A stretch of DNA of 64,000 nucleotides, from NCBI GenBank assembly GCA_009760855.2, contig WPIO01000030.1, positions 310,001 to 374,000 on the forward strand. The letters run 5' to 3'. Numbering within the stretch: position 1 is the first letter of the stretch; each line of letters begins with the position of its first letter. The notes beneath the pieces are model-generated. The model had not been told where the DNA came from, did not search any database, and worked only from the letters and a program-made list of their open reading frames with translations. Below are positions 6,944 through 52,768 of this stretch, one piece after another. Source of the DNA: Cristatella mucedo. Taxonomy: Eukaryota > Bryozoa > Phylactolaemata > Cristatellidae. The position numbers and the translations under genes were made by a program.

Positions 6944-7001
6944 ATGACTGTGTTGAAGATCGCAGTGGCATTGCTAATATTCTCTTTCGTCGTAGTCACC
7001 G
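6944..7001 (+). CDS. Exon 1: start codon and signal peptide
   Basis: ATG at 6944 opens a short reading frame encoding [19 protein letters not shown] and ends in a strong donor (ACCG|GTAAGC) after codon position 1. One lysine followed by an unbroken hydrophobic core and small residues is a textbook secretory signal peptide. The single leftover G joins the GT that begins exon 2 to give glycine. No promoter is assigned. A TATAAA lies at 6365-6370, about 575 bp upstream, but it cannot be tied to a start site from sequence alone. Confidence 0.7.

Positions 7002-52768: not shown

Follow-up and report, generated by a model that had tools for sequence, protein, structure and literature searches.

A ten-exon candidate gene from Cristatella mucedo predicted to encode a type I membrane protein with an orphan head, a Thr/Ser-rich stalk and EGF modules

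EGF proteins that span the membrane once and bear a Ser/Thr-rich stalk are common, and transmembrane mucins of the MUC13/MUC17 type carry a SEA domain near their EGF modules. For the group 14 CTLD proteins CD93, thrombomodulin, CLEC14A and CD248, a published account (PMC6852297) gives the order head, sushi-like module, EGF modules, mucin region and membrane segment, and eight conserved cysteines in the lectin domain. Here we describe a locus of the bryozoan Cristatella mucedo within a stretch of 64,000 nucleotides (the window), which belongs to contig C233 of a genome of 572 Mb in 688 contigs. The plus strand of the window contains, from about 6.9 to 52.8 kb, what we regard with moderate confidence as a single-copy animal gene of about 46 kb encoding a 466-residue type I membrane protein, most likely an adhesion or recognition receptor. 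In the proposed order, the signal peptide is followed by a head (about 165 residues), a Thr/Ser stalk, an EGF module, a calcium-binding EGF (cbEGF) module, a truncated EGF module, a membrane helix and a short tail.

With the group 14 CTLD proteins, as described in PMC6852297, the predicted protein shares a single membrane pass, an N-terminal signal peptide with a globular head, EGF modules, a Pro/Ser/Thr-rich mucin-like region and a cytoplasmic tail. It differs in the order, which is head, stalk, EGF modules and membrane segment here, whereas their mucin region follows the EGF modules, and it was not placed in the group, as the Pfam list contains no lectin family and the head has two cysteines versus the eight conserved in their lectin domain (PMC6852297). 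The likeness to CD97 (adhesion GPCR E5) and related EGF arrays is confined to the EGF part; here one hydrophobic membrane segment is present, and the Pfam list holds no seven-helix or GAIN family. The MUC13/MUC17-type mucins resemble the predicted protein in their Ser/Thr-rich extracellular part, their membrane-proximal EGF modules and their single pass, whereas the N-terminal head is additional here, the stalk comprises only about 60 residues and no SEA match occurs. Since the Pfam list, which extends to E 10 with most matches above 0.1 dropped by the HMMER filters, holds no SEA family, the protein was not filed with these mucins.

Of 8,000 candidates scored in a full-length search, at least five proteins had an E of 0.001 or less, each of them annotated with EGF families. 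P0003, a predicted protein from Xenia sp. (source name SCUBE3-like), likewise has EGF modules beside hydrophobic, membrane-like segments as judged by eye, but its alignment covers 29% of the query at 30% identity and it has two hydrophobic segments versus one here. A search with the head region recovered neither P0003 nor any other match. Judged from titles and the beginnings of abstracts, none of the papers listed for such an architecture deals with this protein. The original prediction had stated that no familiar receptor has this module order. This stands insofar as no full-length relative was found in these searches, but the EGF-stalk single-pass type is already known, and what is new is likely this gene and its apparently orphan head.

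The gene model was rebuilt from six anchor coordinates, the 466-codon total and a splice-site scan. Splicing of the ten segments in silico gave 1,401 nt, corresponding to 466 codons and a stop codon, with AG/GT borders at all nine introns and junction phases of 1, 0, 0, 1, 0, 1, 1, 1 and 1. This reproduced the ten open segments, the nine in-phase junctions and the length of about 466 codons that had been predicted, and we infer that all ten exons belong to one transcript. Exon E1 (6944-7001; all exons lie on the plus strand) comprises the start codon and a signal-peptide-like segment of 19 codons and one base, with a phase 1 donor; an in-frame TAA begins 9 bases upstream of the ATG. The N-terminal module, the head, is encoded by E2 (15730-15851, phase 1 to 0), which contributes its first part and is the least certain exon, by E3 (16179-16337, phase 0 to 0), to which three strands are predicted, and by E4 (36988-37204, phase 0 to 1). 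The stalk of about 60 residues follows with the Thr/Ser-rich exon E5 (40384-40472, phase 1 to 0) and the Thr/Ser/Pro/Ala-rich exon E6 (41057-41153, phase 0 to 1). EGF module 1 is located in E7 (42669-42800), a calcium-binding-type EGF module in E8 (50738-50863) and a truncated EGF-like segment in E9 (50972-51115); these three exons run from phase 1 to phase 1 and contain six, six and four cysteines, respectively. The last exon, E10 (52512-52768), encodes the hydrophobic membrane segment and a tail of about 50 residues and ends with the stop codon. Membrane topology was read from hydropathy only (KD12 of 3.13 for E1, KD19 of 2.93 for E10) and indicates a signal peptide and one transmembrane helix, as in a type I single-pass protein. 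Five N-glycosylation motifs are present in the predicted protein.

In shuffled metazoan modules phase 1 introns bound the modules, which is the class 1-1 rule (PMC8001218). In our model all six module boundaries are in phase 1 and the three introns within modules are in phase 0, the phases being in part a choice of the model. The gene fits the rule as given there (PMC8001218), in line with the original view of phase 1-1 EGF exons as a hallmark of animal modular surface proteins, and with all six boundaries in phase 1, on phases partly chosen by the model, the protein groups with the modular surface proteins of metazoans that consist of class 1-1 modules.

The proposed series of EGF, cbEGF and partial EGF was confirmed by the cysteine counts of E7 to E9 and by profile matches to the first two modules. 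The Pfam families cEGF, FXa_inhibition, EGF_CA and EGF_3 scored above their curated cut-offs at residues about 254-333 (EGF_CA 34.9 bits with a cut-off of 27; EGF_3 31.8 bits with a cut-off of 28.5), and the general EGF model PF00008 remained just under its cut-off (20.1 versus 21.5 bits). Six-cysteine modules together with the EGF_CA and EGF_3 matches assign the protein to the EGF superfamily. An EGF profile made from domains of the five full-length-search matches was run on all six reading frames of the window and detected E8 (E 2.5e-16) and E7 (E 5e-4); the match that followed had an E of 0.89. E9 alone was not significant with this profile (E 1.1), and with four of the six cysteines the third module does not qualify as EGF. 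E8 starts with DIDEC and contains the pattern CxNxxxxYxCxC, which we take to be the calcium-binding and hydroxylation signature of cbEGF modules. Among the best 60 of 92 matches of the EGF part to solved structures were ADGRE5 (CD97), LRP2, NELL2, protein S, thrombomodulin and fibrillin-1, with 9mqr_A of CD97 at the top (E 3.1e-14). Neither the EGF profile nor the phase 1-1 segments revealed a further EGF exon in the 7.9-kb intron; it contains 11 such segments, and all but one, an SLSL microsatellite, lie in repeats. Elsewhere in the genome, a single open frame of 2,516 residues consists of EGF repeats (L009:985-8535).

The head (E2-E4) contains two cysteines, at positions 36 and 137. It matched no Pfam family, and comparison with the PDB gave nothing significant (best E 0.34). 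Protein searches yielded no match at E up to 10 among 758 and among 60 word-sharing candidates, by a word-based method, which may overlook remote relatives and any protein whose length lies beyond its range. A head paralogue was not found in the 572-Mb genome itself, where four first-look candidates and three matches were obtained and the matches are the head's own three exons; tandem paralogues within 284 kb were not detected above chance. Judged by its sequence, the head appears to be an orphan of no recognised family, and it may bear some likeness to a beta-sandwich, itself uncharacterised, that occurs in secreted proteins of invertebrates. Folded alone, E3 formed three strands with moderate confidence (mean pLDDT 67.8), and E4 was uninformative (mean pLDDT 47.5). 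For this reason the beta-rich head of the original prediction is only plausible: E3 points weakly in its favor, but a propensity count over the whole head gave equal values for strand and helix (mean 1.00 each) and no excess of strand. It seems improbable to us that the head is the first example of a new, lineage-restricted extracellular beta domain of class 1-1 and belongs to a rapidly evolving recognition receptor that serves, for instance, allorecognition or immunity.

Open AG...GT segments are plentiful in the window at permissive thresholds, with 464 on the plus strand and 411 on the minus strand; eight Markov resamples gave 221-364. Because of this abundance in-phase chaining is weak evidence, and although the chain itself was confirmed, the original prediction gave it too much weight. 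A stronger argument for one gene is the ordered clustering of rare parts. On both strands of the 284 kb around the window, no signal-peptide-like phase-1 exon other than E1 was found at the thresholds used. Four of 5,182 open segments in the 284 kb are strongly Thr/Ser/Pro/Ala-rich, and they occupy three places: E5, E6 and a third with two overlapping segments. The hydropathy of E10 is reached by 5 of 354 terminal segments in the 284 kb, again at three places: two of them are E10 with different acceptors, two fall on a dinucleotide repeat and one on a repeat-like stretch. E1, E5, E6 and E10, rare as they are in 284 kb, flank the EGF exons in order; the counts are a measure of rarity and not probabilities, since the thresholds were taken from the exons themselves. 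Between E4 and E6 three phase-compatible segments exist at two places, and only E5 is Thr/Ser-rich.

A score for protein-like composition, calculated for 4,821 open segments of which many overlap, helped mainly with E3 and E4, above which 94 and 152 segments scored. It was of little or no help beyond these: 341 segments scored above E10, and the other seven exons were unsupported, with 915 segments above E1, 1740 above E6, 1784 above E2, 2045 above E5, 3750 above E9, 3986 above E8 and 4280 above E7. Among these segments the test does not favor E2, E5 or E6; the EGF exons rank low, as is usual for cysteine-rich sequences. Scores from the splice-site matrices were uneven (acceptors -1.5 for E3 and -3.5 for E4, donor 0.6 for E5).

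Mapped repeats overlap none of the ten exons and cover at least 31% of the gene span in a limited comparison. To this extent the description of the gene as hidden among repeats is correct. A broken retroelement piece is located at 43813-44340 on the minus strand within a repeat-covered stretch (RVT_1 just below its cut-off, E 4.4e-6), and open frames at 33974-34694 (plus strand) and 58599-58919 (minus strand) resemble decayed LTR-retroelement pieces by eye; the two frames at 33974-34694 had no Pfam match. Long CT-rich arrays at 38389-38488, 40552-40721 and 50392-50550 create SLSL/RERE open frames; one starts 80 bases after E5 and another ends 188 bases before E8. Rfam at gathering thresholds gave no match in the window. 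The nearest conserved gene piece noticed downstream, 1.7-2.1 kb past the right end of the window, is an EF-hand open frame (L013:1748-2107; Pfam EF-hand_1, E 5.5e-17) that resembles a penta-EF-hand protein such as PDCD6.

A possible, though rather unlikely, alternative is one gene with another exon set, in which 9396-9487 replaces E2, extra phase 0-0 exons lie in the 20.7-kb intron between E3 and E4, or alternative isoforms occur. Exon 2 has 14 phase-compatible segments, four of them outside mapped repeats, and two of these four are TA microsatellite. The segment 9396-9487 reaches a summed splice score of 6.8 versus 1.3 for E2, but it has a high content of Cys, His and Arg, its composition score is -7.1 versus -1.9 for E2, and E2 lies 327 bp upstream of E3. 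The 20.7-kb intron holds 21 phase 0-0 segments outside repeats, and the segment 29147-29284 in this intron combines a splice score of 5.4 with a composition score of 3.0; on the other hand, E3 reads on into E4 with no gap visible by eye. One gene with the proposed module order, as originally predicted, is still the best reading, with the qualification that E2 has a rival and that further exons in the 20.7-kb intron are possible.

It is quite unlikely that the locus consists of two neighbouring genes, one with the signal peptide and the head and the other with the EGF modules and the membrane anchor. The exon blocks are indeed set apart by introns of 8.7, 20.7 and 7.9 kb, and sharing of both head and EGF was shown for none of the five full-length-search matches. 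However, a separate EGF block would be without a signal peptide, E1 being the sole candidate that the applied thresholds gave in 284 kb, and the head block has no stop codon or membrane anchor before E7. In addition, all junctions are phase-compatible and the stalk stands between the two blocks. Very unlikely is the reading in which the EGF and membrane exons are real but some of E2-E6 are open frames that arose by chance and were selected for their phase: open AG...GT segments are abundant (464 on the plus strand of the window) and E1-E6 are without conservation support, but E1, E5 and E6 are rare in 284 kb, E3 and E4 have a protein-like composition and no exon overlaps mapped repeats.

In the favored reading, a single gene for a type I membrane protein, the early and the late cysteine of the head would probably form a disulphide, the Thr/Ser stalk may be O-glycosylated and the second EGF module would bind calcium. 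The stalk and the EGF rod could hold the head off the membrane; its binding partner may sit on a microbe, on another cell or in the matrix, and the short tail of about 50 residues appears to be without a recognised domain. A role in adhesion or recognition is suggested by the architecture, in which stalk and EGF rod carry the head and a single membrane segment is followed by a short tail with no known domain.

Taken together, a long modular gene with widely scattered exons can be recognised amid repeats from the sequence alone, and what identifies it is the ordered occurrence of rare parts more than the intron phase. Should the gene be confirmed by transcripts, the head would be a candidate for a new extracellular domain and useful for work on lineage-specific surface proteins.
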